Positions 1,097 through 58,587 of a DNA stretch of 64,000 bases are shown here, piece by piece. Numbering within the stretch: position 1 is the first letter of the stretch; every line of letters starts with the position of its first letter. Origin of the DNA: Loxodes magnus (lineage: Eukaryota; Ciliophora; Karyorelictea; Loxodida; Loxodidae); contig CAMPDV010001298.1 of NCBI GenBank assembly GCA_946699065.1, positions 1-64,000 of the forward strand, written 5' to 3'. The position numbers were made by a program, and so were the translations under genes. The notes under the pieces were generated by a model. That model made no database searches. It saw nothing but the letters and a program-made list of their open reading frames with translations, and was not told the DNA's origin.

Positions 1097-2183
1097 ATGG
1101 AGAAAAAACAAACGGAGAAAAAAGAAAAGCAATTTACTAAAATTATTTTTTTAAGAAAACTCTTAAGAGCGAGAAGCCACATCCTAGGGAAAATATCTCT
1201 ACTTCATTTTAAGTATGAAATTCTTCCTAATTTATGCTACTAAAAGTTAATAAATAGGATCAGTTATGACCAAAGTAAAGGTATTTCTTTAATATTTTTT
1301 AGACTAAGCCCTCACTGGTCACTCTTCACCTATTTTATCGGTAGCCATATCAAATGATATGAATTGAATAGTATCAGGTTCAGGATATCCTGAAAATAAG
1401 ATAAAGATCTGGAATTTCCAGACAGGTGCTCTCATAAGAACTATAACAGGACATACTTCTTTTGTTAACTCGGTAGTAATCTCCCCTGACTCTAATTGTA
1501 TAGTGTTAGCATCTGGAGATTCAACTATAAAGATCTGAAACTTATAGACTGGTTCTCTCATAAGAACTTTAACGGGGCATACTTCCTCAGTTAACTCGGT
1601 AGTAATCTCCCCAGACTCGAGTTATATTATATCAGGATCTGATGACACTACTATAAAGATTTGAAATTTCCTCAATGGTGATCTCCAAAGAACTTTGACT
1701 GGGCATACTAATACAGTTATATCGGTAGTAATCTCCTATGACTCTAGATATATTATATCGGGATCTTGGGATAACACTATAAAGATTTGGAATTTCTAGA
1801 CTGGTCAGCTTGTGCGAACTCTTACTGGGCATTCAGGCGGAGTTTCATCGATAAAAGTGTCTAAGGATAATAGGTATATAATATCAGGTTCTGGTGACAG
1901 TACTATTAAGATATGGGACTTCTCTTCTGGTTAGTGTATTCGTACTCTTCAAGGTCACTCAAGTTATGTATCAAGTATTCAGTTAAGTGTCGATTCAAGT
2001 GTTATCTTTTCTGGTTCATGGGATAAAACAATCAAGATTTGGAACTTTGATAAGGGTGAGTGTATATAGACTTTATAAGGGCATACAGGATCAATAAATT
2101 CTATAGCATTGAGTGTTGATAATAGATGGTTGGTATCGGGAGGATGGGACAATACGATAAGAAAGTGGAGAGTTTCGAGTTGA
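1097..2183 (+). CDS. Seven-bladed WD40 repeat protein (copy 1)
   Basis: A complete WD40 beta-propeller read with TAA/TAG=Q and TGA=W. A basic N-terminal leader of about 55 residues is followed by seven repeats of GH..V.SV.IS.D...I.SGS.D.TIKIW, ending in KWRVSS and TGA at 2181. A 28-nt intron (1275-1302, GTAAAG..TTTTAG) splits the leader from blade 1; removing it gives 353 codons. In-frame TGA stands at the tryptophan of N-W-I-V-S in blade 1 and of two IKIW strands, where other blades have TGG. Blades 2-4 are nearly the same at DNA level and differ mainly just after GHT and around the S-D turn, the upper-surface positions of a propeller. WD40 domains of this kind bind proteins or ligands; the partner is unknown. 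Three paralogues lie in the window. Confidence 0.88.
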
Positions 2184-5100
2184 GTAACTTGCTATTTGAC
2201 TTAATTAAATTTTACGATTAAAGATATAAGATATTGGTAATGTATTTAAATGAATGTTTAATGTTAATAATGTTTTTAGTTATATGAAGTTTTTTAATTT
2301 ATTAATTAAAAATTTGTTATATTGTTAAATATTATTGGTTTAAAAAAACGGTTGAGTGATAGGTTAAAGAAATTAGTGAGGTATGTTGATTTAAAGTGGT
2401 AATGTTTAAAAATATTAAAAATATAATTTTGTTAAATGAAAGCATGAAATAAGTTAAAGTTTAAATTTATGCTATAAATTTTATGGATATATTTTTAGAT
2501 TTAGTAAAAATTTCAAGTTGAGTATAAATTTTCATTTTTTTGTGAAGTGGTTAAAATATTATTTATAAGGTTAAAGTAAGTTTATAATTTTGATTATTAA
2601 TTAAAAAATTTAATTAAGTATTTATTTTAAATTAAATTAAATTTTGTTTTTTTTATTATTTATTTTTTATGATTGATTATTATTATTTATTAATTATTAT
2701 TTATTATTTATTATTATTTATTATTTATTGATATTATAAAATTTTAACATTTAAGTTTAATATTTTTCGTTTCCGATTGGATTATAAAATTTTTTGAAAT
2801 TAAGTTATTTATTTATCATTATTTTTTCGATTTTAGAGTTTAAATTTCATGAAAATAAAAAATTTGTTTTTTTGCTCAGCGTTTTACACTACCAAAGATT
2901 TTCGGCACGGAATAAATTTAATTATTTCGGGATAAAAAATTTAAAATAGGAATAAAATTTCAAGAAAAAATTCCAAATATAAAAGATTTTTGAGAAAAAA
3001 TAGGAATTAAAAAAATTTTATATTAAAATAGAATTTGGAAATTTTTTTGTTGAAATGGTTTTTTGTAAAAATTAAAAAAAAATTTTGTTTTTAAGAAAAT
3101 TTTTTGAAAAAATTTCATCAAAACTTTTTTTCTTTTTTATTTAAAAGTATATTTTTGATAAGGTTAATTATGTTTGAAATTATAAAAAACATTTATTGTT
3201 TATGCTTTGGAAAAAATACAATTTTTAATTTTGACCATCTTTTCGAGTAAATGAAAAAAATTCGTTTTAAAAATTTTTAATATTATAAGAATTTACTTAA
3301 ATGAAAAGGATCTCAAGAAAAAAGGAGATATAATAAAATAACCATGAAATCGTGAAAAAATAATCCTTTTTTCGCTACAAAAGATTTTCGGGATGGATAA
3401 ATCCTTTTCTTAAAGGGATAGAATTTTAAAAGATTTGAAAAGTTTTTTAAATAACTTTTAAGAAGTAAATATAAAAAAATAAATTACAATTTTAGGAAGA
3501 AATAAATTAGTTAAAAAATTTTTCTATAAGAGGGCTTAAAACTACCTTTTTAATAGATATTGCGAATTTTAAAAATAACTAATCTAAAAAGAGCTAAAAA
3601 ATCTCTTTATAAAAATATGATCAATCAAGTAGAAAAAATGAGGTATAATGCATCTGTAATAATAAATTTTAGGCCAATTTACAAAGAATCTAAAAAAAAT
3701 ATTTAAACAAGGATCTAAATAATGTATCTAACCTAACTATATAAAATATAGAAACAAAAATTTATTAATCAAGTTTAAAAATATTCTGCTTTATTATAAT
3801 AATTATAAAAATATTAAAAATTTAAGATTAGTAAAAGAGTTTTGAAAAGAGCTTACTACGACTAACTATCTGTTTTTAGTTTGCGAAAAGATGTTAATTT
3901 AGAAGAGGAAAACAAGTTTTTTAAGAAAAATTGCTATATTAAGTATTTTTTCTCTTTAAAATTTTACTCATTCTATAATATTAAAAGAAAAGCTTTAAAG
4001 ATAAGCTTTCTGATTTTAAGCAACTTGAATATATCTACTATGTATATAGAAAATCGATTTTATTTATTAATCTTAAAATTTGAATTTCTAATGAAGCTAT
4101 TTTATTAAAGCTGAAAGCTTTTTAAAAAATAGATTGATTATTTATCATACAAGAAACATTTGCTAGTAAACTATATAATTTGAATATATGGAAAATGATA
4201 AAAATCTTCACTTTCTTGTAAATTATCTTATATTCCATCTAAAATAAGAATAAAATTATATTCTAATATTAAATAATAAGAATTAGCAAAATGAAAGTGT
4301 AAATAATTAAGAAATCAATATAGTTTTGATTATATCAAAAAAGGTTAAAAGCTTTAATCTTTTGTATAATTAAAATAATATACAAAGTGTAAGTTAATAA
4401 CTATTATAATTATATCTATAAAAAATGGGAAATATTTCGTACAATATAAAAAGAAACATATATAGCATAATAAAAAGCAAAGTTTCTACTAAGCCGATAA
4501 TGGTAATAGTACACAATTTCATAAAGAACCTTAATAATGAGCTAGTTTGATTCTAAATGATTAGACAACTAAATTATAATTGATAATTTAAGCATTCCTT
4601 TAATAAATGTTTGGTTTAATATACAATATAGTAATTTTTAATTTAAAATACTAAATATTCATAAATATAATAATATTTAAAGTGCTTTATTTAAAATAAA
4701 TAAAAAAAAGCAACTAATTTAAATTTAAAAGATCTTATCAAGAAATTAAATTAAAATGTTTTAATATTCATTTTCTAATTAAAAATAGTTATTATTTTTT
4801 GTTCATTGATCTATTTTATTTATGATTAAAGATTGTAATTAATGTTTTCATAATGTCTGAAAAATTGTTAGATTATTTAAAGATAAAAAATTAACTCTTA
4901 AAATCAATCCTTTTATAAGATAAACAGAAATAAGAGGAATTATAATTAAAAAAATTCTAACAAACAAATTTATAAGACAAAAAAATTAATTTTATAAGAG
5001 ATCAATTGAAGATGTGCAAGAATTTGAGAGCAAAAATATTACAGTTAATATCAAAATATTGTAATCCAAAAGCCATAGATGCAAAAATTGATGCTCAAAT

Positions 5101-5245
5101 TAAACTACAAATAGATTTATTATTTGGTAAATTAATCTAGAAATAAGAAATATGGCATTGCTTTAACAGATTTATTGAGAAGTTTAATTTATCTTCAAAC
5201 TTAATATCTTTTTTATTTATTATTAAATAATAGTAATTAAAAAAA
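2184..5245. other. AT-rich spacer within repeat copy 1
   Basis: About 3 kb between the WD40 and coiled-coil genes. It holds a TTATTATTT-type microsatellite (about 2640-2735), a GC-richer motif block (2880-2940 and 3370-3400) and otherwise A/T runs. An apparent reading frame near 3880-4108 is not kept: copies 2 and 4 differ from it by single-base indels. No gene is supported. Confidence 0.6.
2880..3400 (+). repeat. Recurrent 'AAAGATTTTCGG' motif block
   Basis: Two related GC-richer motifs: ACTACCAAAGATTTTCGG followed by CACGGAATAAA and TTATTTCGGGATAAAA (2887-2937), and a variant GCTACAAAAGATTTTCGGGA (3373-3392). The same pair follows the WD40 gene in copies 2 (25365-25415, 25855-25880) and 4 (58918-58970, 59406-59430). 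In inverted copy 3 the first motif occurs twice in antisense (38140-38190 and 38430-38480). CpG-containing words stand out in this sequence; the function is unknown (3' processing, termination or replication element are options). Confidence 0.6.
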
Positions 5246-6042
5246 ATGGATTCTTAAAATCTTGTTCCCGGCTTTTTCTTCAGCAAAGAAGAGAAAAAAG
5301 CTCTGGAGAAAAAGCAGCCATAAAAAAATTAGCAAGAGTCTTCTTCTCCCCACTTACAAAACTAATAAAAACCTAATAACTATAATAAACACCTCCTAAA
5401 GTAATGAAAAGAAAGGAATCTAATATAATAACAGGAAAAGAACTTCCATCAAAGATAATTAAAAAGGAAATCAATGTTTATTAGTTAGTATTTGAAATAT
5501 CCAATCTCTAGGAAGAGATTAAAGGGCTTAAGTAGGAAAATTAAGAACTAAGAAATTTATTATCGCTTGGATAAGATAACTTAGAGATTAGAATTATTAA
5601 TCAAGAAAGGGAACTCCAAGCATATTCGAACATTTAAACTGAACATAGATAAGAAACAGCAAGGCTTGGAAATATCGTATAAAAACAAGAGTTGGAGTTT
5701 ATTAAGCAAAAGAATATTAGCACAACATAGCTAATTAGACAAATTAGATGGAATTAGAATAAAAAGAGGTTATAAATCGAAAACCAATCAGATAAGTAAG
5801 GAAGAAATGCTACTACTGTAATAGTAAGTGACATTTGTACAAGAATTGCTAAAAATTTTAGAATTTCAAGAAAAAATTTTGGCGTAAAGAATAAGAAAAA
5901 TATTAGAGGCTCTATTGCAACTAGCATGGAGATATTTACAGAAGAAAATGATGTGAAGTACCTTTTGAAATAATAAGAATAAGAAATCAAAGAAATTGAG
6001 AAGACCTTAGTGAAGATAATTTCATTAGAAAGTCAAGAATGA
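5246..6042 (+). CDS. Coiled-coil protein, repeat copy 1
   Basis: From ATG 5246 (MDSQN..) a 20-nt GT..AG intron at 5264-5283 brings the leader into the main frame, giving 259 codons; without it the main frame starts at ATG 5404 (213 codons). The body is a heptad-rich coiled coil (EISNLQEEIKGLKQENQEL and beyond), followed by a segment reading VIVSDICTRIAKNFRISRKN, then a Q/E-rich tail ending in tandem TGA. A related block occurs at 51.4-51.96 kb. The same gene in copy 4 has identical length with only a few substitutions, which argues for coding. A zinc-knuckle-like CX2CX4HX4C appears in another frame here but sits antagonistically to the coiled-coil frame. Function unknown; resemblance to retroelement ORF1 proteins is only in being a coiled coil. 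Confidence 0.6.
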
Positions 6043-6289
6043 TGAGTAGTATTGCTGATAAAACAACTTATTTTAAACAGTGTCCAGATTGGCACTTTTG
6101 AACATTTTAATTTCATTATCATTATTAAATAATAGTAAAATTAAGAGTTTACTATGTAATTTTAAAACTTTTTATTATATGTATAGTTATATTAAAATTA
6201 TGTACGAATTATTTAAAAATTAGATAATTAAAAAGATGATGGAAGCTGAAGTTGATTCTCATAAAACCTTTTAGCATTTTGGATAAGGT

Positions 6290-6520
6290 CAAGTTCCTAT
6301 CCACTGAGAAGGTCCATGGCTAGAGTCATTCTCAGCAGGAAAACAAAATCTTTCCGATTATCCACTCTTGCTAGCAACTTGAAGACTGTCGACTCCTAGT
6401 TATGGAACACCTGACTGATGCTTATTGAATTAAGCAACAGGATATCCTCTCTATATGCATTGAGAGAGTGACCTGAGTCGTCTAGCTGGAAAGGAGTTTC
6501 CAGTCCCTCGAAAGAGAAAT
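6290..6520 (+). ncRNA. Hairpin-rich GC island, candidate structured RNA (copy 1)
   Basis: A stretch near 45% G+C in surroundings near 20%. Four perfect stems are visible: CTGAGAA 6304-6310 with TTCTCAG 6329-6335 (extended by TTCCT 6294-6298 with AGGAA 6337-6341); TGCTTA 6419-6424 with TAAGCA 6431-6436, enclosed by CCTG..CAGG; CTCTCT 6447-6452 with AGAGAG 6463-6468; CTGGAAA 6486-6492 with TTTCCAG 6497-6503 around a GGAG loop. Copy 4 keeps the arms of three stems exactly and has a one-base deletion between stems. I do not recognise an RNA family (not tRNA, 5S, U-snRNA or a hammerhead by eye). A protein-coding reading is possible in several frames, which with this genetic code proves little. Confidence 0.45.
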
Positions 6521-7117
6521 TTTAAAGTTTATAATTAATTAATTGTAAACTGCTTATTACTCCTAAGGATAATATTTAAAGATTTAAAATACTTAATTGA
6601 AAATATTTGCTTGCTATGTTTGTAGAAATCTTTATAAGTCAGTATTAATAAATATTCGAAAATAGTCCCCGTTTCAGTTAAATATCTAAATCAAAATAGG
6701 TGAAAAGAAAATAAGTAGAATTGCCATGATATAGTACAAAACTGAGGAATACTAGCGAAGTATTTAGTAAAGGAAATTATTTTCAATTACTTTAAGTATT
6801 TACCAAGGTATTATCACTATATCTCGATATTGCTATTATTATGTAGAAATATTACCAAAATATAGACATTAAAAAATATAAAATTTGAATTAATTTTTAA
6901 GATAAGACTAAAATTAAAATATTTAAATGTAAAAAATAAATAAATAAAATATAAATAAGAGCTTAATAAACTGCTTAGCTATAAGCATTAAATAATATCT
7001 ATTTTAACAAATTTATTATTTTATTAATTTCACTTTGTTTTCATTTAAACAAATTCTCTTTAATTTTAATTTATAATATAATTAATTAAAATCTATAAGC
7101 TTGTTTTAGTTTAATAA

Positions 7118-9030
7118 ATGGATTAGTAAAATTATAAAAGTCCTAAAAAATAATTTGGTTCTTAGAAAAGAATTCCTAATATACTTCAATATAGTTGCTT
7201 AATGTGTTCAAAGTGCATTAAAATTGGCCTTATGTCGCTCAATAAATATTTTGTAAAACACACTAGTAAATATTTAAAGGCTAAATATCTGAGTTAAAAG
7301 ACTAGATTTCAACTGAAAATTTGAGAAGAGCATAATGAGTTTCAATAAAAAGCAAAACTAAATGAAAATTTATAGAATTATTTGCAAATATTAAAATAAT
7401 AAAAGATATAGTAAATTAACTTCATTAAAGTTATATTGATGATCTAAAAACTCTTTTCCAATATCATCAATTAAGTATGTACTTCAAACCTTAAATAATA
7501 TTAGAGGGAATTATAAAATAATATAAGAAAAATCGAAGAAATAATTTAAAATTTAGAAAAAACATTACACTTACCATCATAAACTAGGTAGTAACAAGAA
7601 GAAATAGTAACCTTATTACATATAATTAAACATCAATACAAACAGATAAAGTTAATGATTTAGAAATATAACTAAGTTAAAAATGAAGAAGTAAATGTTA
7701 ATTAAATTTCAGATCAGTTAATTAAAATTATTTTATCGTTATGAATTTTATTGCGGAAAGGTGCAGAATTAAAATCCATAACATTATAATATTACAGATA
7801 TATTAAATAAATATTTTAAATAATAAATTAAATATGATTTTACACTATTAACAGTAGTGAATGTTGCTAAATTATTAGAAAAATTTTAAAATAAAGCTTT
7901 GAAAAATACTAATTTTCAAGAAAAACCTTTAAATTTTTCTAACATATGTAATAATTAAGATATTTTAATTAAATTCAAACAGTTATCAAGTTAAGGTTTG
8001 ATAAAAAAAATTGAATGATATCATAGAATTATCTAAGGCTGATATCAAAGTAGAATAAGCTTCTGCAAAAGCGATAGCAATCTTAAAATGTTTTAACTAT
8101 AATTTTATATAAAAAATTTTTGAGGGAATAAGAATCTAAGGTGCTAATTGAGTGAATCAAATTTTCAAGATTGTAATCTAAGAAACTCAAATTTATAAGT
8201 GGTCAATCTAAGGAATATGAAGAATGCGAAGCTAACCAAATGCAACTTAAATGGAGGAAATTTAAATAATATATAATTGAAATTGCCCTAATCTTTTGAT
8301 ACTTTGCTGAAACATATGAATTGAATTTATTCGATAGCGGTCACGAGTGACTAGAAATAATCATATCAGGAAGTAATGATTCGACTATAAAGATTTGGGA
8401 TTTTCTGAGTGATTTCTATAAGAGTACTTCGACCGAACGAGCGAATGAAGCTGTAAAGAGGGACTAGAAATAAATAGTTTCAGGAAGTTATGCTAGTACA
8501 ATATAAGTATGAGAATTTTTGAATGTGACCTTAAAAAGTACTTTGATGGGACACACGAATTATGCTAGATCAATAATGGTAACAAATGAATCGTTTCGGA
8601 AAGTTCTGATTAAACTATAAAGATATGAAATTTTTCAACTAGTTAATGTATTCGAATTCTCTAAGGATATCAAGATTCGATAAGAACAATAGAATTTAAT
8701 CATGAAAAAAACTCATAATATTTGGAGGTTATGACAAAGCAATCAAAATATGAAACTTCCAACAAAAAAAACATAAACACTTTATTGCTGCAAATTTAAT
8801 GAGAATGTTAGTAATAGCAACTGATAATAATTTTATAATATCTGGATCATATGACAACACTATAAAATATGGAATTTCTAAACAGAGGAGAGGTTAATAT
8901 TATTACGAGGACATAAGGGAGAAATTTACGAATTAGTGCTGACTGGAGATATAAAAGGAGTAATATCAGGTGGATAAGAGAAATAGATAAGAAAGTGAAA
9001 TATTCAAAATTATTACAAGATCTTAAAAAT
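7118..9030 (+). pseudogene. Decayed zinc-finger / coiled-coil / WD40 protein (copy 1)
   Basis: From ATG 7118 (MDQQNYKSP..) the reading gives a cysteine cluster SCLMCSKC, then (in another frame, about 7490-7800) a long helical region such as LQNNIRKIEEIIQNLEKTL, then WD40 strands at 8330-9030: SGSNDSTIKIWDF, a degenerate VSGSYASTIQVWEF, LMGHTNYARSI, ISGSYDNTIK. The order cysteine cluster-coiled coil-WD40 resembles ciliate TRIM-like/WD40 proteins. Frame changes between and inside blades, and missing tryptophans, indicate decay. The left part is repeated in copy 4 from 63153. It may be an older paralogue of the short WD40 genes with its N-terminal half retained. Confidence 0.5.
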
Positions 9031-9764: not shown

Positions 9765-9769
9765 TAGAA

Positions 9770-23572: not shown

Positions 23573-24656
23573 ATGGAGAGAAAATAAATGGAGAAAAAAG
23601 AAAAGCAATTTACTAAAGGTATTTTTTTAAGAAAACTCTTAAGAGCGAGAAGCCACATACTAGGGAAAATATCTCTACTTCATTTTAAGTATGAAATTCT
23701 GCCTAACTTATGCTACTAAAAGTTAATAAACAAGATCAGTTATGACCAAAGTAAAGGTATTTCTTTAATATTTTTTAGACTAAGTCCTTACTGACATTTA
23801 ATTTATTTACTCGGTAGCCATATCAAGTGACCTGAATTGGATTGTATCAAGTTCAGCATATCCTGAAAATTTGATAAAGATCTGGAATTTCCAGACAGGT
23901 GCTCTCATAAGAACTATAACAGGACATACTTCCTCAGTTAACTCGGTAGTAATATCCTCAGACTCTAGCTATATCGTATCAGCATCTGGAGATTCAACTA
24001 TAAAGATCTGAAATTCGAAGACTGAAACTCTCATAAGAACTATAACGGGACATACTTCCTCAGTTTACTCTGTAGTAATCTCCCCTGACTCTAACTATAT
24101 AGTATCGGGATCTTATGACAAAACCATAAAGATCTGAAATTTCCACAATGGTGCTCTCCAAAGAATTATAACGGGGCATACTAATACAGTTATATCGGTA
24201 GTAATCTCCTATGACTCTAGATATATTATATCGGGATCTTGGGATAACACTATAAAGATTTGGAATTTCTAGACAGGTCAGCTTGTGCGAACTCATAGTG
24301 GGCATTCAGGTTCTGTTTTATCGGTGATAGTGTCTAAGGATAATAGGTATATAATATCAGGTTCTGGTGACAGTACTATTAAGATATGGGACTTCTCTTC
24401 TGGTTAGTGTATTCGTACTCTTCAAGGTCACTCAAGTTATGTATCAAGTATTCAGTTAAGTGTCGATTCAAGTGTTATCTTTTCTGGTTCATGGGATAAA
24501 ACAATCAAGATTTGGAACTTTGATAAGGGTGAGTGTATATAGACTTTATAAGGGCATACAGGATCAATAAATTCTATAGCATTGAGTGTTGATAATAGAT
24601 GGTTGGTATCGGGAGGATGGGACAATACGATAAGAAAGTGGAGAGTTTCGAGTTGA
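23573..24656 (+). CDS. Seven-bladed WD40 repeat protein (copy 2)
   Basis: Paralogue of the gene at 1097. Leader [13 protein letters not shown].. then a 28-nt intron at 23751-23778, then seven blades and TGA 24654; 352 codons after splicing. Blade 1 has TGG where copy 1 has TGA (NWIVS), direct support for TGA=Trp. The GH of blade 1 is lost (TDIQF instead of TGHSS), and blade 2 ends with an unusual NSKTETL, so blade edges vary while the IKIW strands are kept. Blades 5-7 and the 3' flank are nearly identical to copy 1, whereas blades 1-4 differ more, a mosaic pattern. Expected role: scaffold or recognition domain, partner unknown. Confidence 0.87.
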
Positions 24657-27161: not shown

Positions 27162-27995
27162 AGTGGTTTAATAAATTAAATTTAATTAAACTAAAAAAAT
27201 TTGTGGTACCTTCAATTTTCAGAATATGTTCTTCCAATTGAAGGTATTATATTGTTTTTAAATGTTATTATATATCAAGTTTATTGCTCTTCAGAACTAA
27301 TTTTCTAGTTTAGGTTTTTTTTCTTCTGAGTATCTCCTTTCTTGTTCATTTTCAAGCTAACTTTCATTTTTTTCTATTTTCTGTTGTCAATCTTCTTCTT
27401 CTTCATCTTCGCTATCGTTTTCCTCTTCGTTCCAATCTTCTTCTTCCTCATCATTTTTCATCTAATTTTGTTGGACATCTTATTCTTTGTTTTCTTGATT
27501 TTATTATTCTTCATTCTCTTCATTAAAATTTTCTATTCTTAGATTTGCTTCTTTTTATTATTTCTCGTATTGCTCTTCTTCTTTCTCTTGCTATAGAATT
27601 TCTTGCCTCCTTTTGATAAACATTTGAATGAATATTTTTATTTATTCATCCACCATTTCTATTTTTTTCTTAGGAAAAGAGTTTATATATAGTTAATCGT
27701 AATTTATTAGTTTCAAAATATCACATTAACCAATTTTGGAGACCAATCATTCTCTTATATCAATGTAATATATACATTCCATTACATGTTGGAGAGTGGC
27801 ATATTCTCCGCATATACAAAAAGGATTTTCAATAATATAATTTCGATCTTTCAGAGTCTTTCGAAATGCGTAAGACTGGCTTCTAATCTTATAGATGCAA
27901 ATTATTTCTTTCAAATATTTTTTGTTTAATTTCGTGTATGTTATTTTGGGGAATTATCTTAGGTTTTAAAATTGTTCTATAGTGGTTTAATAAAT
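27162..27995 (-). mobile_element. 5'-truncated LINE insertion (LINE-A) with 15-bp target-site duplication
   Basis: A reverse-strand fragment of a non-LTR retrotransposon in repeat copy 2, absent at the matching place in copies 1 and 4. The direct repeat AGTGGTTTAATAAAT stands at 27162-27176 and 27981-27995. The coding part reads from the RT thumb (ITYTKLNKKYLKEIICIYK) through the zinc-binding end typical of LINE proteins, FCICGEYATLQHVMEC (CX1CX7HX4C type), then WLV, and a long acidic tail (DEEEEDW, NDSEDEEEED) to TGA 27291. TAA/TAG=Q throughout; TGA stands for the W in IREW, which is TGG in LINE-C. Confidence 0.8.
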
Positions 27996-28345
27996 ATGAT
28001 TTTTAAAAGATTAAACACTTATTTTAATTTAAAATATCTTATCAAGAAATTAAATTAAAATGTTTTCATATTCATTTTCTAATTAAATAGTCATTATTTT
28101 TTGTTTATTTATCTATTTTATTAATGTTTTAAAGATTGTAATTATATTTATTCATAAAGTATGATATCAACTGAAAATTGCTAGATTATTTAAAGTTAAA
28201 AACTTAATTCTTAAAACAATTCTTTTATAAGATAAACAGTGATAAGATGATATTATAGCTTAAAAAGATAATTTTTTCTGCAAATTGATTTATAAAACAA
28301 AACTTAATTTTATATGAGATTAATTGAAAATGTGCAAGAATTTGA

Positions 28346-30680
28346 GGAAATATAAAATAAATAGGTTATAAGATGCAATAAATCGTCAAAAATATTTAGA
28401 ATCTTTCCTGCAAACTTATCTAGAATTCTTTTAGATAGATTAAGATAATCTTGAAGTTTAATATGAATTTATCAAAAATAACATCTAATAATATGCTGAT
28501 TAAACATTGGGATCCTTTATTCCAGACTCAAGTTATAACAAATTTCCTCAAGATCTTACTAAGAAATATGTAGGCCTAAAAGAGCTAACTCAGTATATAA
28601 GAAGCATACATTATATCTGGAAGAATAAACTAATAAGTAACTAATATTCATGAAAAAGTGAAACGACATTCTGAATGACTTCAATTCTAATTTGTGAAAT
28701 TTTGAAAAAACAAAGCAAAAAAGAAACTTTTACTTCTAAATGGAGATGCTAAAGAAATATTTTCAAATACTAAGAAAATTAAAAAGCCTAAAATAATAAA
28801 TTAAATGAACTTTGATTAAGAAATCAAAAATAAATCCATTGAGTCATGGAAGAATTTATTTTTAAGAAAAATTTTAATCTAACTAAATAATATAATTCTC
28901 AGTAATTAAAAAATAGATAAAATATAAGATAGTATATAGGAAATTAAAAATTATCAACTCTCATATTTATTAGGATTTTATCTTTTTACCATACAAGAAA
29001 TACAAGAAATTACGAATGGAAAATCAGCTGATTCAGACAGAATAAAAGGTGAATTTCTGAAATATTGTGGATAATATTTGATAATAATTCTTCACTCTTT
29101 TCTGAATAATATGTTAAGATTTGGAAGAATCCCTTAGGAATTAAATACATTGTCGGTAATTCCAATATTTAAAAAAGGAAATAAAGATGACTGGAAAAAC
29201 TGACTACCTATTTCTCTTATTAATATTATTATAAAACTATATGATAAAGCTTTAACAAAAAGATTATACAATCTAATTTATTAGAGAAATTTGATTCGTT
29301 CTTCATAAATGGGATTTATGAAAAACAGATAAACAACTTAATAAATTTGAATAATATAACAAATAATTGATAACTAACGGAAACGTGCTAAAGATAAGCA
29401 TTTTTACATAAAATCAATTAAAGATAAAATTTATCAAATCTGAATGCATCTAAATTTTAAAGAAACATTAGAAATAATAAAATTTAAATTTATGATTAGA
29501 TAATTAACCAATTATTTAAAAGGAACAAGTAACATATTTAGATGTAATGCTACATTAGAAGAAGAATTTTAATTCTCATTGTAGAGAAGTCGTGATCAAG
29601 TATTTAGTTGCAATGAAAAAGCTGCTTTTAACTTATGAGATATAAGAATGTTATTTCTTGACATTTTAAAACTTTATGCAGACTTTTTACATTACCTAAA
29701 GCAGAATATGGAGAGAACTAGTACCATGGTGTATTCAGAGAGGAATAACTTGAGTTTTGAATAGAATTGAATCAAATATGAGAATGATTTCAAGAAAAGC
29801 ACTTTAAGCACATAAATAAGTTATGCTTCATAGATTTAAACTGGTTATCTTTCAAACACATTATGGCAATAAAGTTTTTTTAATTCTATTATAAAATGAA
29901 ATAAGAAAATATTGATTTTCCGACGTCGACAATAGGCTCTCTTTTCATTACCAACTGAAAAAAAGGATTTCAATGCTATGATCAAGTTTAGCAATTATCA
30001 GACCTCTATAGTATCGATCAGTAGAATTCTAAGATTAGTACAAATTAAAAAATTTTTACTAAATATATAAGAGATAAAATACAATAATATTTCTATAATA
30101 CAGCTACTCAAAAGTTTAAGAGAATGAAAAAGCTAAAATATATACTAAACAATTTCGTATCTTAACCAATTCTAGTAATTACTTACACTAAATTGAACAA
30201 ATAATTTAGACAAGAAATTATCAGTATATATAAGCTTAGAACCCAATCTTATAGTTTTCGAAAATATCTTTAAGATCATTATTATCCTATTGATAATCCC
30301 TACTGTATGTATGGAGAGTATGGTAAAATTTAGCACATTTTTAGATGTATATACTATTCTAATATAAGAGATTGACTATCGTAAAAGATTGGGTATTATG
30401 ACTTAAGACGCTTTATAATATATGATTAAATACTTATAAACTTCTTTCCAAAGTCTTATTTGGGATATTTAGATTTATAAATAAAAGTATTTCACAAGTA
30501 ACTTATATCAAGAAGATTAGATTTTTAGAAATGAAAAAAGTAAAAAAGGAAGACATAAAAGAGAGACTATAACAAGAGTAATTTAAAATTTATGAAATCA
30601 AGATTATAATTAAAAAGCATTAAAAACATTTACTAATGTCTATAATTGAAGGAAGCAATTCATGCAGTTATAGATGTAAA
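28346..30680 (+). mobile_element. LINE fragment with decayed reverse transcriptase (LINE-B)
   Basis: Begins where copy 2 homology ends, in the region between endonuclease and RT (IPDSSYNKFPQDLTKKY, matched in LINE-C). The RT is clear: EITNGKSADSDRIKGEF, VIPIFKKGNKDDWKNWLPIS (29155-29215, TGA as the second W), QMGFMKNRQTTQQ, and a palm motif LYADF at 29672-29686 where active enzymes have YADD. The end has KLNKQFRQEIISIYKLRTQS, then YCMYGEYGKIQHIFRC. No endonuclease is present, the catalytic box is altered and the frame breaks before it, so the copy is dead. A 3' motif AATTGAAGGAAG (30647-30658) recurs in LINE-C and similarly in LINE-A. Confidence 0.8.
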
Positions 30681-30699
30681 AAATTATTTTAATTTAAAA

Positions 30700-32885: not shown

Positions 32886-35800
32886 TCCTTCAATTAAAGT
32901 TGTTATAATGTTTTTTTAAAGTTTTTCAACTCAAAAACTTTCTACTTCATCTTCTTCTTCAGCTTTATTATCTTCGTTATCAGTTTATTCATTCTAATCT
33001 TCCACTTGCTCATCTTTTTCTTCTTGTTCTTCTTTTCCTTCCTTATTTTCATTATTCTCTTCATCTTTATTTTGCTCTTTCGCTTCTTTACCCTTAGTCT
33101 CAGAACTTTCTTATTATAAGTTTTTTTTCTAATTCGAATAATTCTAATCTCCTTTTAAGTAACATCCTATGAAAAATTTTAATTTGCAGATAAATGTATT
33201 CTAATTTGTTTTTTGGAAATTAATTGATATAATTTGGTCATAGGTTATTAATTTTCTAATGTCGCATTTTCCAATTTTTGCTATTAACCATTCTCGCATA
33301 TCTATATAGCAATCGCATTCCAGAATATGTTCAAATTAATCAAATCTCCACACATACAATGGGAATTCTCAACTAAATAATGTCTGTCTTAAAGATCCTT
33401 GCGAGAATTGTAACTTCAGGTTCTGAGTTTGTATATACTAATTATTTCTTTTCGATACTATTTATTTAGTTTTGGATAGGTAATTTACGGGAATTATTAT
33501 TATTATTCTAATTATTCTATAAATAACTTTACAGTGGTCATTCTTTTTAGTCTTTTAATAGTTACTTCATAAAATTAATGTTGAATCTTACTTTTAATAT
33601 ATTTTGTAAAAGTATTAAAGCTACTACTATATTCCTAATTATTAATATCTATTTCGTAACATTCAGATAGTTTTGTTACTTAATCTCTATATTAATATCC
33701 TTCTTACCAATTGTTCTTAAAAAGGGAATTACTTATTAATTAATTCTTCCAAACTACGTGTGAGTTTCTTTATATACTTGATTAGCTCTTTTAACTTCAA
33801 TATACTTCTTCATGAGGTCTTTTGTAAGTTTATTATATTTAGGGTCTGGAATAAATGACCTAATATTTCATCTGCATTATCTTAATACATAGTATTAATC
33901 CTCTAAATTATTCCTATCAATTTGAAAAATTCATTATAAGTTACAAAAAAAGATTCTTAATATTTTTATCTGTCAATAGGGTCTTTTAGCCTGCTAATTT
34001 TATATTATCTTTAGGTAATTATGTCCAAATAGAGAATTGTGTTGAAGAGAAAATTTACCATATTTGGTATGTGATCAGTAAATAGTTAGTTATAATGAAC
34101 CTAGAAGTTTTCAAATTGATTAATTTTCAGGTGATTGTTTATTACAATATGTTCCTTTATGTATGCAAGTGTTACTATTCATAATATTTACTATTTCAAG
34201 ATGCTTCTGAATAAGAAATTCCTAGAATCTGTTTGTATTATCATTGTCATTATTAGGATTATCTCCATAATCTTATAGAGGAGTATTGAAATCTCCCATT
34301 AGAATATGTGGGCTATTTGGAAATTGATTAAGTAGCAAATTAATATAGTCATATGCTTGGTCTTTTATGTTCTCGTTTTAGCTATTATCTGGCATGTAAC
34401 AGAACGTAATAAATATATTATCTAGTTTGGCTATGATGAATCGATTCTAGGATACATCAATTATATTAGTTTCTTCAGTACTACTGAATTCTTCTTTAAT
34501 AACTAGACATACACTCCTCCTTTTCCTGAATTTTTGCAATAAGTCCTATAACCTTATATTAATATTGGAGGGAAATCTTGTTTTTACCAAGTTTCATTAA
34601 TTGAAAAAATGTCAATACTATTTTCTCTTATGAATTCTTCTACTTTATATAGTTTACTTGCTAATCCATTTATGTTGACATATCCAATCTTAATTTGATT
34701 GACGCTACTTCTTTTTTGTGATTATCTTGATATAAAGTAATATACCTTCCTTGTTGATTTAGTTAAGAGCCGGCTTTCCACCCAGGTTCATAAATTAAAA
34801 TTTCTTTTTTGTCCACTGATTTCAAGATGAACCTATTTTTTTAATGTTATTTATTTAAGTCATAAAATTAAATTATAATATAGAGATATTTTCTGCTATA
34901 TATCTTTAATAATCTCTTATCAATATTAATTTTAACTACTTGACTGTCAATCTATCCTTTATCAAGTTCTTAGTCAAGTACAACGTATCTGTTTTAAATT
35001 ATAGTTTAGAAATTAGTTCTTCTTCAAAAGTTAGATAATATTAAGTCTCTTAGCTATTTTGAATTAGCATTGTAATTTTTTATAAAAGCCTAATTTTGTT
35101 CCATTTTATTGATATGCTATTTAGTAGATGGAAAATATAGATCTGGACATTTTCTCTTAAATTAATTTATAGAATCTTATTCCAAAGAATTTCTTAAGTA
35201 TCCTATTTTAGATTTTATGAATGAGAGTTGTTGAAAATCTAAAAAGATTATTCACAGAATTTTATGGATAGAAATGTTAAATTGGAAGAAATTTACTACT
35301 TAAAAATTTGGTTCTATTTCAGATTTTCCATTAAAGTACATTTTTCTGATGCAACTTTATCAAAAACTTTAATTTGATTGATTAGTTGCTCATTTATTTT
35401 ATCATATTATTTCTACAATTTTATGTATTTAGAATCAATAAAATCGCACTAGGAAATTTAATCCAAATATAGTAGGTCTGTTCCAGTAGCCGTATCTAAA
35501 TTCAAAATAATTGTTTGAATTTTTTAATCACTGGATTAAATTTCGACAAATGTGTAATCATTCTATAGTTAATGCTTATATGAAAGAATTTTTAAATTTT
35601 TGGATATACTTATTTTTTTGTAAATGTAATGAACTTAATATGCTTTAATAATCCAATTCTTTATGTTATAGATTCTATTAAAGATTATTACATAAATCCT
35701 ATTTCTAAGAATATTTCTTTTCTCATTCAAATTTAAAAATTTCAAGTTAGCTTTATAATATTTATACTTAATCAGTTACTTTTTAATTTTAAGATTTTAG

Positions 35801-37599: not shown

Positions 37600-40500
37600 T
37601 CTAACCCTTTTTTTTAATTTATCCATCCTGAAAATCTTTTGAAGTGTAAGACTCAGAGCTAAAAAATAAAAAATAATTTTTCCAAATTTCATTCTTTACT
37701 TTCTTTTCTCTCTTTTTAATTGAGATCCTTCTCAATTAAGTAAATTCTTATAAAATTAAAAAATTTTATCACTAGTTTTTCATTTACTTGAAAAGAAATT
37801 AAAATTTTTTTAATTTTAGTTCAAGTCAAAAAAGATTAATTTTTATCAAAAACATAAACAATAGCTTTTTTTTTTAATTTCAAAAAAATTAAACTTATCA
37901 AATTTTTTTTCTTGAAATAAAAAAGCAACAAAAAATTTGCTAAAATCAAAAAAAATCAAATATTTTTCCTTAAAACAAAAATAAGTGTTTTCATTTTTAC
38001 AAAATACATTTTAAAAAGAAGATTTACAAATTCTAATTATACTAAAAAATTTTTTAAATTCCTATCTTTTTCAAAAATCTTTTATATTTGCAATTTTTTT
38101 TGAAATTTTATTCCCTTTTAACTTTTTTCATCCCGAAATAATTAAATTTATTCCGTCCCAGAAATCTATGGTAGTATAAATCACTGAGCAAATAACAAAT
38201 TTGTAATTTTTCGAAAAAATTTTTAATCAAAGGAAGCTATAAAAATTCATTTTCCTAAAAAAAAACAAATTTTTTAAAAATTTTCCAACAAATATTTTCA
38301 AAAATCGCTTTCAAAAATATATTATAAAAAAATTTTTAAATTTTTTATTCCTATTTAGGTATTTTTTATTCCTTTTTAGCTTTTTTATTCCGAAATAAAA
38401 AAATTTATTCCTATTTAGGATTTTTTATCCCGAAATAATTAAATTTATTCCGTCCCAAAAATCTTTGGTAGTGTAAAACTATGAGCAAAAAAACAAATTT
38501 TTTTTTTCATGAAATTTAAGCTCTAAACCTGAAAGATAAAAACTTACCATCAGAAAAATTAATTTTCCAAATCGGAAACGAAACATATTAAACTTAAATT
38601 TTAAAATTTAATAATTATAATAAACACTAATAATTAATTATAATTAATAATAATAATAATTAATATTAAATATCAATCATAAAAAAACAAAATTAAAAAA
38701 CAAAATTTAATTTAATTTAAAATAAAATAAATACTTAATTAAATTTTTTAATTAATAATCAAAATTATAAACTAACTTTAACCTTATAAATAATATTTTA
38801 ACTACTTCACAAAAAAAACGAAAATTTTTACTCAACTTGAAATTTTTACAAAATCTAAAAATAAATCTTTAAAATTTTATAGCATAAATTTAAACTTAAA
38901 TTTATTGTACGTCTTCATTTAACAAAATTATATTTTAATACTTTTTAAACATTACCACTTTAAATCAACATACCTCACTAATTTCTATAACATATTACTC
39001 AACCTTTTTTTTAAACCAATAATATTTAAGAATATAGCAAATTTTAAATAAATTAAAAAAAATTCATAAAACTAAAAACATTATTACCATTAAACATTCA
39101 TTTAAATGAATAATCAATATCTTATATCTTTAATCGTAAAATTAAATTAAGTCAAATAGCAAGTTACTCAACTCGAAATGCTCCATTTTCTCACAGTATT
39201 GTCATGTCCTCCCGATACCAACCATCTATTATCAACACTCGATGCTATAGAAGATATTGGATCTGTATGCCCTTACAAAGTCTATATACATTCACCCTTA
39301 TCAAAGTTCCAGATCTTGATTGTTTTATCCCATGAACCAGAAAATATAACACTTGAATCAACACTTAACTGAATACTACGTACACCATCTACGTGACCTT
39401 GAAGAGTACGAATAAACTAACCAGAAGAGAAGTCCCATATCTTAATAGTCCTGTCACCAGAACCTGATATTGTATATCTATTATCCTTAGACACTATCAC
39501 CGATAAAACAGAACCTAAATGCCCAGTAAGAGTTCGCACAAGCTGGCCAGTCTAGAAATCCCAAATCTTTATTGTTGTATCCCAAGATCCCGATATAATA
39601 TATCTAGAGTCATAGGAGATTATTACCGATATAACTGTATTAGTATGCCCCGTTATAATTCTTTGGAGAACACCATTGTGGAAATTTCAGATCTTTATGG
39701 TTTTGTCATAAGATCCCGATACTATATAGTTAGAGTCAGGGGAGATTACTACCGAGTAAACTGAGGAAGTATGTCCCGTTATAGTTCTTTAGAGAGTTCC
39801 ATTGTGGTAATTTCAGATCTTTATCGTGTTATCGAAAGATCCCGATATAATATATCTAGAGTCTGGGGATATTACTACCGATAAAATATTAGAAGTATGT
39901 CCTGTTATAGTTCTTTGGAGAGCACCTGTCTGGAAATTCCAGATCTTTATCGAATTTTCAGGATATCCTGAACTTGATACTATTCAATTCAGGTCACTTG
40001 ATATAGCTACCGATAACACAGCTGAAGAATGAACAGTAAGGATTTAATCTAAAAAATATTAAAGAAATACCTTTACTTTGATCATAACTGATCTTGTTTA
40101 TTAACTTTTAGTAGCATAAGTTAGGCAGAATTTCATACTTAAAATGAAGTAGAGATATTTTCCCTAGTATGTGGCTTCTCGCTCTTAAGAGTTTTCTTAA
40201 AAAAATAATTTTAGTAAATTGCTTTTCTTTTTTCTCCATTTTAATTTTTATAACTTATTTAAATAACTATTTAATTAAAATAACTCAATAAATTTTACTT
40301 ACTTAATTTCAATACAATTAAACTATTAAATTATTTATTAAGCATACTTATAAGTATCTTCTAAAACATTGATTTTTCTATTTTTGTCTTAAAACAAGAC
40401 AATATATAAAACTAATAATGTACAAACTTTTACAATTTTAATTATTTTATATCCTTTTACTTTTAAATAAAAGGATAATTTATTATTTCAAAAGTTTATA

Positions 40501-46395: not shown

Positions 46396-46409
46396 ATACT
46401 TAAAGTTAG

Positions 46410-50200: not shown

Positions 50201-50205
50201 GAATA

Positions 50206-53147: not shown

Positions 53148-53417
53148 TCAATCAAATAAAGATAAAAGTATCCATTCTTTAAATGCAAATACTTGTGTTA
53201 CCTCTTTGATATTTTTCATATCTATATCAACCTCAAGTTTTAAAATGTATTTTCTTAAACTCTTTTCCGTTTTTACCGAAATATAAATCCCAGCTGGTAT
53301 TTCTACTTTCTTTCTCTATTTTTTAAAAGAGATGACGCCTCGCTACATATCTAAAATTTCAAAACGATTCTCTTTATCTAGTTTCCCATATGAAACAGGT
53401 TTACAGAAATTTCACAT
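53148..53417 (-). CDS. Small protein of unknown function, 89 aa
   Basis: From ATG 53417 (MWNFCKPVSYGKLDKEN..) to TGA 53148, 90 codons in one frame, with KVEIPAGIYISVKTEKSLRK and LEVDIDMKNIKEVTQVFAF; very protein-like and with little glutamine by TAA/TAG. The second codon is TGA (W). It lies 87 bp beyond the stop of the hydroxylase gene on the same strand. It could be a complete small gene or the last exon of a larger one. No family recognised. Confidence 0.5.
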
Positions 53418-53503
53418 TTTAAGAGAAAAATAAAGTAAAATAAAAGTTAAAATAAAGGAAAACAAAAAGCGTTTATTTTTAAATAAGATTTTATAAAGAG
53501 TTA

Positions 53504-54318
53504 TCATTTGTCGTGCTCTTTTTTCTCTTGACTGTAATATGTTCCAAAAATTTTGTCGAAGATTGTTATTATTGTTTCATAGTTAGCTATAATCTTATAA
53601 TGATGATCGAGATGATATTTGTATGGGAACTTATCCCAATGTGACATTACAGCAACCATCATATAACTTAAAGATATAAATACTTTGGCCCAGTAGTTAA
53701 TAGGAAATATTAGTATAGGGTAGAATAAATTTGACATAGAAACATAAGTTTCTACTATGTGATCGAATGCAAAATTAGTTATTCCAATCTTATCTTCAGG
53801 TTTTTACCATTAGGGATGAAATGAATGCCCATAACGATTTAAAAATTTGATATTATGTGATGCTCTATGCTATGTATACCACCAAAGTTCAAAACCTAGC
53901 ATCCATAACATAATATACGAATGACAGACTAAAAATATGTGCGACCCGTAGTGACTTTCGTTATGTCCTATAAGATAGTCCAATCGATGAACGTTTGCAT
54001 CAAAGATAAAACCAACATATTGACTGAAATAGACTTTATCCACTTTTTGAAACTATCGTTAGACATATCTTTATCTAAAACTTTAATAATAATATATAGG
54101 AAAGTAGTGATAGACGATATTGAAGCTAAGTCAACAATCCAATAAATGAGTCACATTGCCCAAGGTGAAGTTACTTTAAAAAAGTTGATATTCTGTGCTA
54201 TCTACTTTATATCTTCTTAATTAGATATTTCTGGATTTTTATAAGTTCCAATAACATACAATGAGAGGAATACACTTGTGATCCACAGGTAATCAGTCTT
54301 CTTCTTCTGAATTTTCAT
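53504..54318 (-). CDS. Fatty-acid hydroxylase / sterol desaturase family protein
   Basis: Integral membrane di-iron oxygenase of the family that hydroxylates or desaturates lipids and sterols in the ER. From ATG 54318 (MKIQKKKTDYLWITSV..) with a 20-nt intron at 54024-54043 (reverse strand GTGGAT..TTTCAG), 265 codons remain to TGA 53504. The histidine boxes are WYTQHRASH, YGHSFHPQW and YHLDHHYKIIANY, in family order, with membrane stretches before and between them; family members are usually about 250-330 residues. TAA/TAG give Q in HPQWQKPED; TGA gives W in PWAMWLIYW. The second box has HSFHP where HxxHH is usual, so the enzyme may have a variant site. Substrate cannot be told; an extra 5' exon is possible (see 54330-54720). 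Confidence 0.78.
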
Positions 54319-54329
54319 ATTTAATTATA

Positions 54330-54720
54330 AATAGAGTTATATACCGATTTAGGTGGATCCACGCTAATAAATTTTTTTATTTTATTTCCTCGAAGCTAAA
54401 TGTAGGTGGATACTCGTTAGAGCTTTTCCTTTTTAATGAAAATAGTTAAATTAATAGTATTTAGTATTTAAAAAGTCTTCAAAATAAATATAACAAAATG
54501 ACAATTAAAAAAATAAACGGCATCATATGCATTAAAGCTATTCAATGCATAAGCATAAAAACCCTTTTTCCCATCAAATACTATATCATAAACTTATTGA
54601 TCATATTCAATCATCTTTGCTAGCCTTCTTACTGAAATTATTTTTGATAGCTTAGACCATATAGCATTCTTTATACCTTTTTAATAATCCAAGGGAAAAT
54701 TTAATTTAATTTGTTTCGTT
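54330..54720 (-). CDS. Possible upstream exons of the hydroxylase gene
   Basis: Reverse-strand reading: LDYQKGIKNAIWSKLSKIIS, RRLAKMIEYDQQVYDIVFDG, GFYAYALNSFNAYDAVYFF, then unresolved sequence and either KKFISVDPPKS or, in another frame, NEYPPTFSFEEIKQKNLLAW. A 38-nt GT..CAG interval across 54306-54343 would join DPPKS to KKKTDYLW of the hydroxylase in frame. Both parts look coding, so the hydroxylase may have an N-terminal extension or a separate small gene lies here. Confidence 0.35.
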
Positions 54721-56103: not shown

Positions 56104-57500
56104 TATGTTTATTTAAATACTTTCTTATTACTACTAAAGACTGTATTCTTTTTAAATTTTATGACTAAAACCAACTAGAATTTATTGTGACATTAATTTT
56201 AGTTTTAAATAACTTATACTAGCTAATCTAATACTTATATTATCTCATACTACAAAGAAATATATTATGTTAAGTTTACTCTTTCTATTAATTCAGAAAA
56301 TAATAATAGAAGATATTAAAAATATGCTTTCTTAAAAAAACTTATAATTTTCTTAAGAGCAAACAACTAATTTTAAGAAAGAGAGTATTAATAGTGATAA
56401 CTATGTTTTTTGGATAAGTATAGAATAATAGAATTAAGTTTTTATCTTTAAATAATCTAGAATAATTTAGGTATTATTAATTAGAAATGATAATTACAAA
56501 AATAACATAAATAATAAATATAATATTAGTTTGCTATAAAAATAGAAAGTTATCTAAATGTATTAATTATAACTAATCTAATATCTAAATTAAAGAGAAA
56601 TTAATTAATAATTAATAAAGCTAAAAGGATAAAATATTAAGTATTTAATAGACATAATTAAACATATTAAAGCTTATTTTAATAATAAAATTAAATATTA
56701 CTATTTAATAATTGTAAGATATAATTAGTGATACACCATTTATAGCTAGTTTAAATATTTACTTTCTACTACTTATATTTATTACATTTATATATTTTGC
56801 TTAGAATCAACATTATAATAAATTATATTAGTTTATTATTATAAGAGAGACCATTATAAATAAAAAGTTTTAATTAAATAGTAGTAAAAAAGTGGGCAAT
56901 TAAAAGAGTTTATCTTATAGATTCTAAAAATGCTTTTTTAAAATAATTTGATGTTTTTTAATATTTATTCAAACTAATTAATAAGAAACTTAATTTTATT
57001 TCATTTTTTAATTAGTAAAAAGATTAAAGAAATCATCTTTTTTGATTAAATGTAAGTGAAAAATAATAATTAATAACAGTAGATTTAAAAGAATTGTAAT
57101 ATTTTATTTATTATTTAAAAGAGTCTATAAAGAAATAAGGTTTTCTTATTAAAAGTCTTTGATTTAAAGCACGAATAAGTAGTAACTAATAAATGCATAT
57201 TAAAGTTATTATAATAAGGATATAAATTCTTCATTATAAAACTTTTGATATAATAAATTATCCTTATATTTAAAAGTAAAAGGATATAAAATAATTAAAA
57301 TTGTAAAAGTTTGTACACTATTAGTTTATTATATTGTCTTGTTTTAAGACAAAAATAGAAAAATTAATGTTTAAGAAATGAGATATTTATAAATATGTTT
57401 AATAAATAATTTCATTGTTTAATTTTATTGAAATTAAGTAAGTAAAATTAATTGAGTTATTTTAATTAAATAGTTATTGAATTAAGTTATAAAAATTAAA

Positions 57501-58587
57501 ATGGTGAAAAAAGAAACGGAGAAAAAAGAAAAGCAATTTACTAAAAGTATTTTTTTAAGAAAACTCTTAAGAGCGAGAAGCCACATCCTAGGGAAAATAT
57601 CTCTACTTCATTTTAAGTATGAAATTCTGCCTAACTTATGCTACTAAAAGTTAATAAACAAGATCAGTTATGACCAAAGTAAAGGTATTTCTTTAATATT
57701 TTTTAGACTAAGTCCTTACTGTTCATTCTTCAGCTGTGTTATCGTTATCCATATCAAGTGACCTGAATTGAATAGTATCAAGTTCAGGATATCCTGAAAA
57801 TTCGATAAAGATCTGGAATTTCCAGACAGGTGCTCTCCAAAGAACTATAACAGGACATACTTCTTTCATTTACTCGGTAGTAATATCCTCAGACTCTAGC
57901 TATATAGTATCAGGATCTGATGACTAAACCATAAAGATCTGAAACTTATAGACTGGTGCTCTTCAAAGAACTATAACGGGGCATATTGGCTCAGTTTACT
58001 CGGTAGTAATTTCCCCAGACTCTAGCTATATAGTATCTGGATCTTACGATGCAACCATAAAGATCTGAAATTTCCTCAATGGTGATCTCCAAAGAACTTT
58101 GTCGGGACGTACTTCTAGAGTTACCTCGGTAGTAATCTCCTATGACTCTAGATATATTATATCGGGATCTTGGGATAAAACTATAAATATTTGAGATTTC
58201 TAGACTGGTCAGCTTGTACGAACTCTTACTGGGCATTCAGGTTATGTTTCATCGGTGATTGTGTCTAAGGATAATAGGTATATAATATCGGGTTCTGGTG
58301 ACAGTACTATTAAGATATGGGACTTCTCTTCTTGCTAGTGTATTCGTACTCTTCAAGGTCACTCAAGTTATGTATCAAGTATTCAGTTAAGTGTTGATTC
58401 AAGTGTTATCTTTTCTGGTTCACGGGATAATACAATCAAGATTTGGAATTTTGATAAGGATGAGTGTATATAGACTTTGTAAGGGCATACAGATGGAATA
58501 TAATCTATAGCATTGAGTGTTGACAATAGATGGTTGGTATCGGGAGGATTTGACAGGACAATAAGAAAGTGGAGAGTTTCGAGTTGA
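57501..58587 (+). CDS. Seven-bladed WD40 repeat protein (copy 4)
   Basis: ATG 57501 (MVKKETEKKEKQF..), 28-nt intron 57679-57706, seven blades, TGA 58585; 353 codons after splicing. Blade tips are again different (GHTSFIY, GHIGSVY, GRTSRVT, GHSGYVS, GHTDGIQ), including loss of the conserved His in blade 4 (GRT) and Trp-to-Arg or Phe changes in the S-W-D turn of blades 6 and 7 (SGSRD, SGGFD). TGA encodes Trp in NWIVS and in several IKIW strands. Same gene order around it as in copy 1. Confidence 0.88.

Follow-up and report, generated by a model that had tools for sequence, protein, structure and literature searches.

UGA as tryptophan, as stop and apparently as selenocysteine in the karyorelict ciliate Loxodes magnus

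In Loxodes magnus, UAA and UAG very probably encode glutamine, and UGA is very probably read as tryptophan inside genes, as stop at their ends and, as it seems, at one particular place before a SECIS hairpin, as selenocysteine. The window analysed here, taken to be nuclear DNA, is the whole stretch of 64,000 nucleotides at the beginning of contig CAMPDV010001298.1, and the search was extended to the genome. An earlier note, made from the letters of the window, had claimed that TGA serves as tryptophan and as stop with TAA and TAG as glutamine. This claim is supported by alignments to outside homologues, in which 8 of 9 alignable TGA codons fell on tryptophan, and by the paralogues, in which the alternative codon at a TGA column was TGG in 16 of 17 cases (WD40, TrxR and GPx). 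That UGA means both tryptophan and stop in Loxodes magnus is already known, and the window is one more example of it. No difference was observed between the window and the karyorelict nuclear code (NCBI table 27). The published analysis of Loxodes magnus gives the same meanings, with UGA as the sole stop, in a LINE-rich genome (PMC11441545); the words tRNA and selenocysteine are absent from its main text, which thus covers neither the selenocysteine reading nor the tRNA arrays. For Loxodes striatus, a review gives eRF1 motifs that are altered (PMC4695839). Judging from the genes recovered, UGA seems to have its third meaning, selenocysteine, elsewhere in the same genome.

The window contains four WD40 paralogues (Table 1), for which the start methionine was in each case the analyst's choice. 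A codon recount gave 12 internal TGA and 33 TGG codons. All 12 internal TGAs were located in four tryptophan columns, in which only TGA or TGG was present in all copies. The same structural tryptophan had been said to be written TGG in one copy and TGA in another; columns 34 (N-W-IVS) and 175 (IKIW) indeed alternate in this way, and columns 91 and 133 show TGA in the four copies. The same terminal TGA closes every copy, and the statement that genes end at TGA after the last conserved motif is correct for these four (4/4). The last 130 codons before the stops were devoid of internal TGA, the ten tryptophan codons of the final 20 positions were all TGG, and a GC-rich segment ended about 11 bases or less from the terminal TGA. 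The absence of tryptophan TGAs over these 130 codons is consistent with a stop choice made near the transcript end. The copies lie within segmental duplications, and their third-position excess is mild, which is weak evidence for purifying selection.

Table 1. Features located in the window (positions in nucleotides; internal TGAs are given by their first base).
Feature	Position	Strand	Terminal TGA	Internal tryptophan TGA	Basis
WD40 copy 1	1266..2183	+	2181-2183	1365, 1536, 1662	Pfam WD40, E 2.6e-82
WD40 copy 2	23742..24656	+	24654-24656	24009, 24135	Pfam WD40, E 2.6e-77
WD40 copy 3	39168..40085	-	39170-39168	39986, 39815, 39689	
WD40 copy 4	57670..58587	+	58585-58587	57769, 57940, 58066, 58192	Pfam WD40, E 4.5e-76
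LINE-like C-terminal motif REwL with TGA	27744..27755	-			letters
LINE RT motif NwLPIS with TGA	29198..29215	+			letters; sole match in window
LINE-like C-terminal motif RDwL with TGA	30367..30378	+			letters
LINE-like C-terminal motif REWL with TGG	33285..33296	-			letters
Stretch with fatty acid hydroxylase domain	53200..54448	-			PF04116, E 5.2e-09
Peptide WAMwLIY, TGG and TGA together	54142..54162	-			letters; upstream of hydroxylase domain, other frame

In the outside alignments mentioned above, TGA was deliberately read as glycine before the homologues were aligned. Tryptophan was found opposite three of the four TGAs in TrxR, both in GPx and all three that aligned in WD40 copy 4, compared with a PDB homologue. 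The single TGA on phenylalanine was in TrxR, opposite the mouse protein, at a place written TGG in the four remaining Loxodes copies. With TGA read as tryptophan, hence not blind, a second TrxR placed 2/2 TGAs on tryptophan and SepSecS 1/1, in the segment WPRIDQK, where a TAG was aligned to glutamine. The evidence for glutamine differed between families: CAA was the commonest alternative to UAA and UAG in TrxR (16 cases), whereas in the WD40 copies it accounted for just 1 of 14 alternatives, which goes against the glutamine reading.

Three tRNA-Sec genes with anticodon tca were found in the genome, together with one match for SepSecS, five TrxR genes all ending in Cys-TGA-Gly-TGA, and two SPS2 genes whose selenocysteine column is occupied by a TGA, 335 codons ahead of the stop. 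It is conceivable, though improbable, that the TGAs of SPS2 and TrxR mean tryptophan like the others and that selenocysteine is not used, as UGA is tryptophan at other TrxR sites and the four GPx genes found all use cysteine, none selenocysteine. This explanation is opposed by the presence of tRNA-Sec, SepSecS and SPS2 in one genome and by the catalytic selenocysteine column itself, which is TGA in 7/7 TrxR and SPS2 genes (two of the TrxR copies being near-identical) and never TGG. Furthermore, SECIS-like hairpins were present by a strict rule at 6 of the 7 candidate selenoprotein 3' ends, as compared to none of 12 controls and 8 of 556 background tiles; SPS2_L073 misses the rule by one base. 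Between the start of the profile match and the stop, the SPS2 tryptophans are written TGG only, three per copy. Both copies have three in-frame TGAs at the same places, 37-43 codons upstream of the profile match, in a stretch that is putative coding sequence, the alignment starting at residue 36. The idea that selenocysteine is kept only near the stop, where tryptophan UGAs are rare, fitted TrxR and the cysteine-only GPx genes, and was yet rejected because the SPS2 TGA lies 335 codons away.

All 15 gene ends considered were TGA (four WD40, five TrxR, four GPx and two SPS2). This count leans towards TGA, since outside TrxR the end was set at the first TGA past the last conserved residues; TrxR alone has an independent anchor, its C-terminal Gly-Cys-Sec-Gly. 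A code like that of Condylostoma, in which UAA and UAG too are stops near transcript ends so that three codons are ambiguous, would have identical sense meanings, could take advantage of this presupposed placement, and would look the same in genomic DNA, where a sense codon cannot be distinguished from a stop that is not used. It is nevertheless very unlikely, as the conserved part of the protein is followed by TGA in every copy of the four families (WD40 4/4, TrxR 5/5, GPx 4/4, SPS2 2/2) and the published analysis of Loxodes magnus has UGA as its sole stop (PMC11441545).

The LINE sequences give weaker support for TGA as tryptophan than the earlier note had claimed. Its REW/RDW and NWLPIS motifs are present in the letters with TGA (REwL, RDwL, NwLPIS) and with TGG (REWL). 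In contrast, among eight RT copies taken from 150 matches, the alternatives at TGA columns were GGA (6), TTA (1) and TGT (1), with no TGG (0/8), and TGA was common to the eight copies in six of the nine columns. When the LINE protein was compared with human L1, the two TGAs in the well-aligned part stood opposite Ile and Leu, and neither opposite tryptophan. The four LINE stretches searched, including 27003-28169, 28202-29500 and 29500-30900 in one frame, matched no Pfam family at E 0.01. The note's hydroxylase example, WAMWLIYW, does hold TGG and TGA in one peptide, but its frame differs from that of the PF04116 domain, which makes it necessary to assume either an intron or a break in the frame. 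Rfam and ARAGORN gave no match over the window, and composition-based gene finding had no yield. A decay of the WD40 and LINE copies into pseudogenes with random nonsense TGAs, in a Tetrahymena-like code where TGA is only a stop, would fit the segmental duplications, the mild third-position excess and the non-tryptophan codons at some LINE columns, but is scarcely credible, and for host genes is already contradicted, given that the WD40 TGAs are 12/12 in tryptophan columns, that the conserved SepSecS (a single genome match), TrxR and GPx have TGA at tryptophan positions, and that most LINE TGA columns (6/9) are TGA in all eight copies.

Returning to UGA as tryptophan and stop, the most likely decoder of the internal codons would be an abundant tRNA-Trp(CCA) with a short anticodon stem. 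A 34-base signature of this tRNA had 124 exact matches in the genome (reversed-pattern control, 0), and 99 of the 100 matches listed were in two tandem arrays. A run of T followed 25/25 exact copies in two parts of the C67 array. The anticodon stem has 4 bp: at its top, the C67 copies that were read have A.C in place of a pair, and the single C148 copy that was read has T.C. The genome search for a tRNA-Trp(UCA), as suggested in the note, with one UCA-anticodon pattern, which a deviating gene would escape, gave 50 matches, none tRNA-like by eye (50/50), and ARAGORN found 0 genes in two of them; a DNA search with a human tRNA-Trp gave no match. The short stem in Loxodes is already reported: two papers describe a 4-bp-stem tRNA-Trp(CCA) in Blastocrithidia, Condylostoma, Amoebophrya, Blepharisma and Loxodes (PMC13092985, PMC12005148), with the same CCA anticodon and broken top stem pair as here. 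The present data differ in the 124 matches and in the tandem arrangement of 99 of the 100 listed. No printed report of the size of these arrays was found in the literature searched. The arrays suggest that tRNA dosage contributes to the sorting of sense and stop.

We propose, with a slight preference over other arrangements, that the three meanings of UGA follow three separate cues. Tryptophan would be the default, driven by the more than 100 short-stem tRNA-Trp genes. A UGA at the gene end would be a stop, probably chosen by its distance to the transcript end, as published for relatives. A downstream SECIS hairpin, in TrxR and SPS2, would direct tRNA-Sec(UCA) to one particular UGA, even 335 codons inside the gene. 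With the site so deep, selenocysteine would compete with tryptophan and not with stop, and failed insertion would give a full-length, inactive protein. In TrxR, tryptophan, selenocysteine and stop UGAs would share one frame, with a single codon between the last two. A SECIS has to come after the stop, so that in TrxR and SPS2 about 63-84 bases or more would separate the stop from the poly(A). This exceeds the published 41-base median, so the stop choice would not be a simple short-distance rule. The seven candidate selenoprotein genes would be natural cases in which one codon must be sorted among tryptophan, selenocysteine and stop, and in the five TrxR genes with all three meanings the SECIS would force a longer 3' UTR. 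The choice between sense and stop in ambiguous-code ciliates becomes testable on a few transcripts.

The triality of UGA (tryptophan, stop and selenocysteine) was previously shown for TrxR in Condylostoma magnum and Parduczia sp.; C. magnum has tRNA-Sec, and no tRNA-Trp(UCA) was found in its nuclear genome (PMC4967479). Loxodes appears alike for TrxR, and differs in having SPS2 too, with its predicted selenocysteine 335 codons before the stop, and in that a whole long-read genome was searched. In Blastocrithidia, UGA likewise stands for tryptophan and selenocysteine, both in the one protein SelTryp, but the stop is UAA (PMC12153298), whereas Loxodes uses UGA as stop too. Two candidate loci for Rdx (SelT/SelW-like) proteins, L019 and L020, were also observed.

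The four WD40 coding sequences of the window, which emerged when TAA, TAG and TGA were all translated as sense codons, contained together 12 internal TGA and 33 TGG codons. All 12 TGAs fell in columns occupied only by TGA or TGG: at column 34 one copy had TGG and the other three had TGA, at column 175 one copy had TGA and the other three had TGG, and columns 91 and 133 were TGA in all four. The claim of the earlier note, that the same structural tryptophan is written TGA or TGG, was thus borne out. Each copy terminated in SS-TGA, and the GC-rich segments ended within about 11 bases of this terminal codon. At least 131 codons separated the last internal TGA from the stop, and the Trp codons in the final 20 positions were TGG in 10 out of 10 cases. 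This lack of TGA fits, weakly because the copies are related, the depletion of coding UGA near stops described in passages of PMC11441545. Differences between the copies were nearly as many at codon positions 1 and 2 as at position 3, as would be expected of relaxed or diversifying repeats. The 180 bases 3' of the stop were identical in copies 1 and 2.

Locations of the WD40 genes and of the tRNA-Trp(CCA) arrays
Feature	Location	Strand	Loci	Support
WD40 copy 1	about 1.3-2.2 kb (1266-2183)	+		Pfam WD40, E 2.6e-82
WD40 copy 2	about 23.7-24.7 kb (23742-24656)	+		Pfam WD40, E 2.6e-77
WD40 copy 3	about 39.2-40.1 kb (39168-40085)	-		end-to-end alignment with the other three copies
WD40 copy 4	about 57.7-58.6 kb (57670-58587)	+		Pfam WD40, E 4.5e-76
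Tandem arrays, short-stem tRNA-Trp(CCA)	C67:482293-491201 and C148:155460-169425		L045-L065, L068-L070	at least 48 and at least 52 signature matches

Outside homologues were aligned blind, with TGA translated as Gly so that Trp was not favoured. The four internal TGAs of the TrxR gene L030 aligned to Trp, Trp, Trp and Phe. In the GPx gene L023 and in WD40 copy 4 all aligned TGAs (two and three, respectively) fell on Trp, with one further internal TGA outside the alignment in each gene. Trp was therefore found in eight of the nine columns checked, as expected from the proposed code, and Phe in one. When TGA was read as Trp, and hence not blind, the single TGA of SepSecS and both TGAs of the TrxR gene L027 were also on Trp. 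Where a WD40, TrxR or GPx paralogue had a different codon in a TGA column, it was TGG in 16 of 17 instances and TTC in the other. As for TAA and TAG, which had been proposed to encode Gln, a TAG of SepSecS aligned to the Gln of WPRIDQK; at TAA/TAG columns CAA was the commonest alternative in TrxR (16) but only 1 of 14 alternatives in WD40.

The other motifs named previously were all located in the window (lower-case w for TGA, capital W for TGG). The LINEs displayed REwL and RDwL versus REWL, and NwLPIS occurred once; the peptide WAMwLIYW and the hydroxylase domain were in different frames. No family was matched by a Pfam search of four LINE stretches from the window. The reverse transcriptase family RVT_1 gave 150 matches in the genome, the best 150 of 3,403 candidates, with TGA, TAG and TAA in frame. 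In eight of these copies, TGA was present in every copy at six of nine TGA columns, and the other three columns had GGA, TTA and TGT as alternatives, TGG in none. In a comparison with human L1 that translated TGA as Gly, the well-aligned part contained two TGAs, which corresponded to Ile and Leu; none of the TGAs placed fell on Trp. The LINEs thus show retention of TGA as sense, and are on their own no proof of Trp.

A search for the tRNA-Sec family gave 52 matches, three of them above the cut-off (73.9, 70.5 and 63.5 bits), all with anticodon tca; the contigs that carry them are 1.4 and 2.0 Mb long. Two lower-scoring matches were tRNA-Ser. SepSecS was represented by one match (357 bits). The TrxR model had ten matches, five of which were above the cut-off (L026-L030), two of these being near-identical. 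All five ended in Cys-TGA-Gly-TGA (TGC-TGA-GGT-TGA), and in all five a further in-frame TGA came exactly three codons after, the codons between being variable. The two SPS2 genes, L072 and L073, possessed a TGA at a column which is Thr in human SPS1 (aligned for L072) and Sec or Cys in working enzymes. From this TGA to the stop as placed there were 335 codons, and from the profile match on the Trp codons, three per copy, were all TGG. Over codons 50-330 the differences between the two copies were concentrated at position 3 (60, 19 and 133 at positions 1, 2 and 3), a pattern expected of genes under purifying selection. Both copies also carried three more in-frame TGAs at matching sites 37-43 codons upstream of the profile match; this stretch is only putatively coding. 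The four GPx genes found all had Cys, not Sec. A SelT-like gene (L020, C332:178152-178262) had a putative CxxU/C motif.

A strict SECIS-like rule applied 3' of the stop picked out six of the seven TrxR and SPS2 genes. Among the controls it picked out none of the 12 3' ends tested; among 556 window tiles it picked out 8, two of them with a stem as long as most of the six. The seventh gene had the same hairpin fold, offset by one base. The stem following the stop was long in both SPS2 genes. Measured from the start of the stop codon, the hairpin core began at 27-40 and ended at 66-87 bases; the 3' UTR of these genes must therefore be longer than about 63-84 bases. Passages of PMC11441545 give a median of 41 and a mean of 53 for 3' UTRs.

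The tRNA-Trp(CCA) genes, reached via a pattern search (357 matches, about the first hundred listed), were of two kinds, with a 5-bp anticodon stem or with a broken top pair. Two single genes on contig C110 had the normal 5-bp stem. In the short-stem kind, the top pair was A.C in the C67 copies read and T.C in the one C148 copy read. A 34-base signature of this kind had 124 exact matches in the genome (52 forward, 72 reverse; none for the reversed pattern). Among the 100 of these 124 that were listed, C67 carried 48, at intervals of about 187 bases, and C148 carried 52, of which 51 formed an array with intervals of about 241. Two sampled parts of the C67 array held 25 exact full-length copies, each with a T run 3' of it. 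ARAGORN also reported two odd variants at the tRNA loci scanned. The counterpart pattern with a UCA anticodon gave 50 matches (16 for the reversed pattern), none tRNA-like by eye, and ARAGORN found no tRNA gene in the two of them that it scanned. Passages of PMC13092985 and PMC12005148 credit the report of the short-stem tRNA in Loxodes to Swart and colleagues. Literature searches found no published description of the tRNA-Trp array size in Loxodes, and the word "tRNA" is absent from the main text of PMC11441545.

The use of UGA as Trp and stop in Loxodes is already known, since the code is in print for karyorelicts: a portion of PMC11441545 gives table 27, with UGA as sole stop and also as Trp when far enough from the poly(A). 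Passages of PMC4967479 attribute UGA triality to Condylostoma magnum and Parduczia, and excerpts of the literature describe one codon for Trp and Sec also for Blastocrithidia and Amoebophrya. No selenoprotein use in Loxodes was found in literature searches that did not include the two most relevant papers, and the available text of PMC4695839 mentions Loxodes only in connection with UAR encoding Gln and with eRF1 motifs. Loxodes is likely a further case of UGA triality, set apart by an internal Sec site and by large tRNA arrays.

The genome searched had 705,730,643 bases in 7,843 contigs; a part of PMC11441545 describes the Loxodes magnus MAC assembly as 706 Mbp and LINE-rich. The window (C1298:1-64000) was AT-rich (GC 15-25% per 2 kb), with no tRNA genes by ARAGORN and no Rfam matches at gathering score. 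The WD40 copies were embedded in segmental duplications that extend beyond them and are about 87-98% identical. One repeat pair of 5.1 kb (2832-7961 and 58864-63996) was 98% identical at a distance of 56 kb. A degenerate WD40 gene at 8102-9000 (Pfam WDR3 propeller, E 1.4e-12), in a frame rich in TGA, is apparently a decayed relative.
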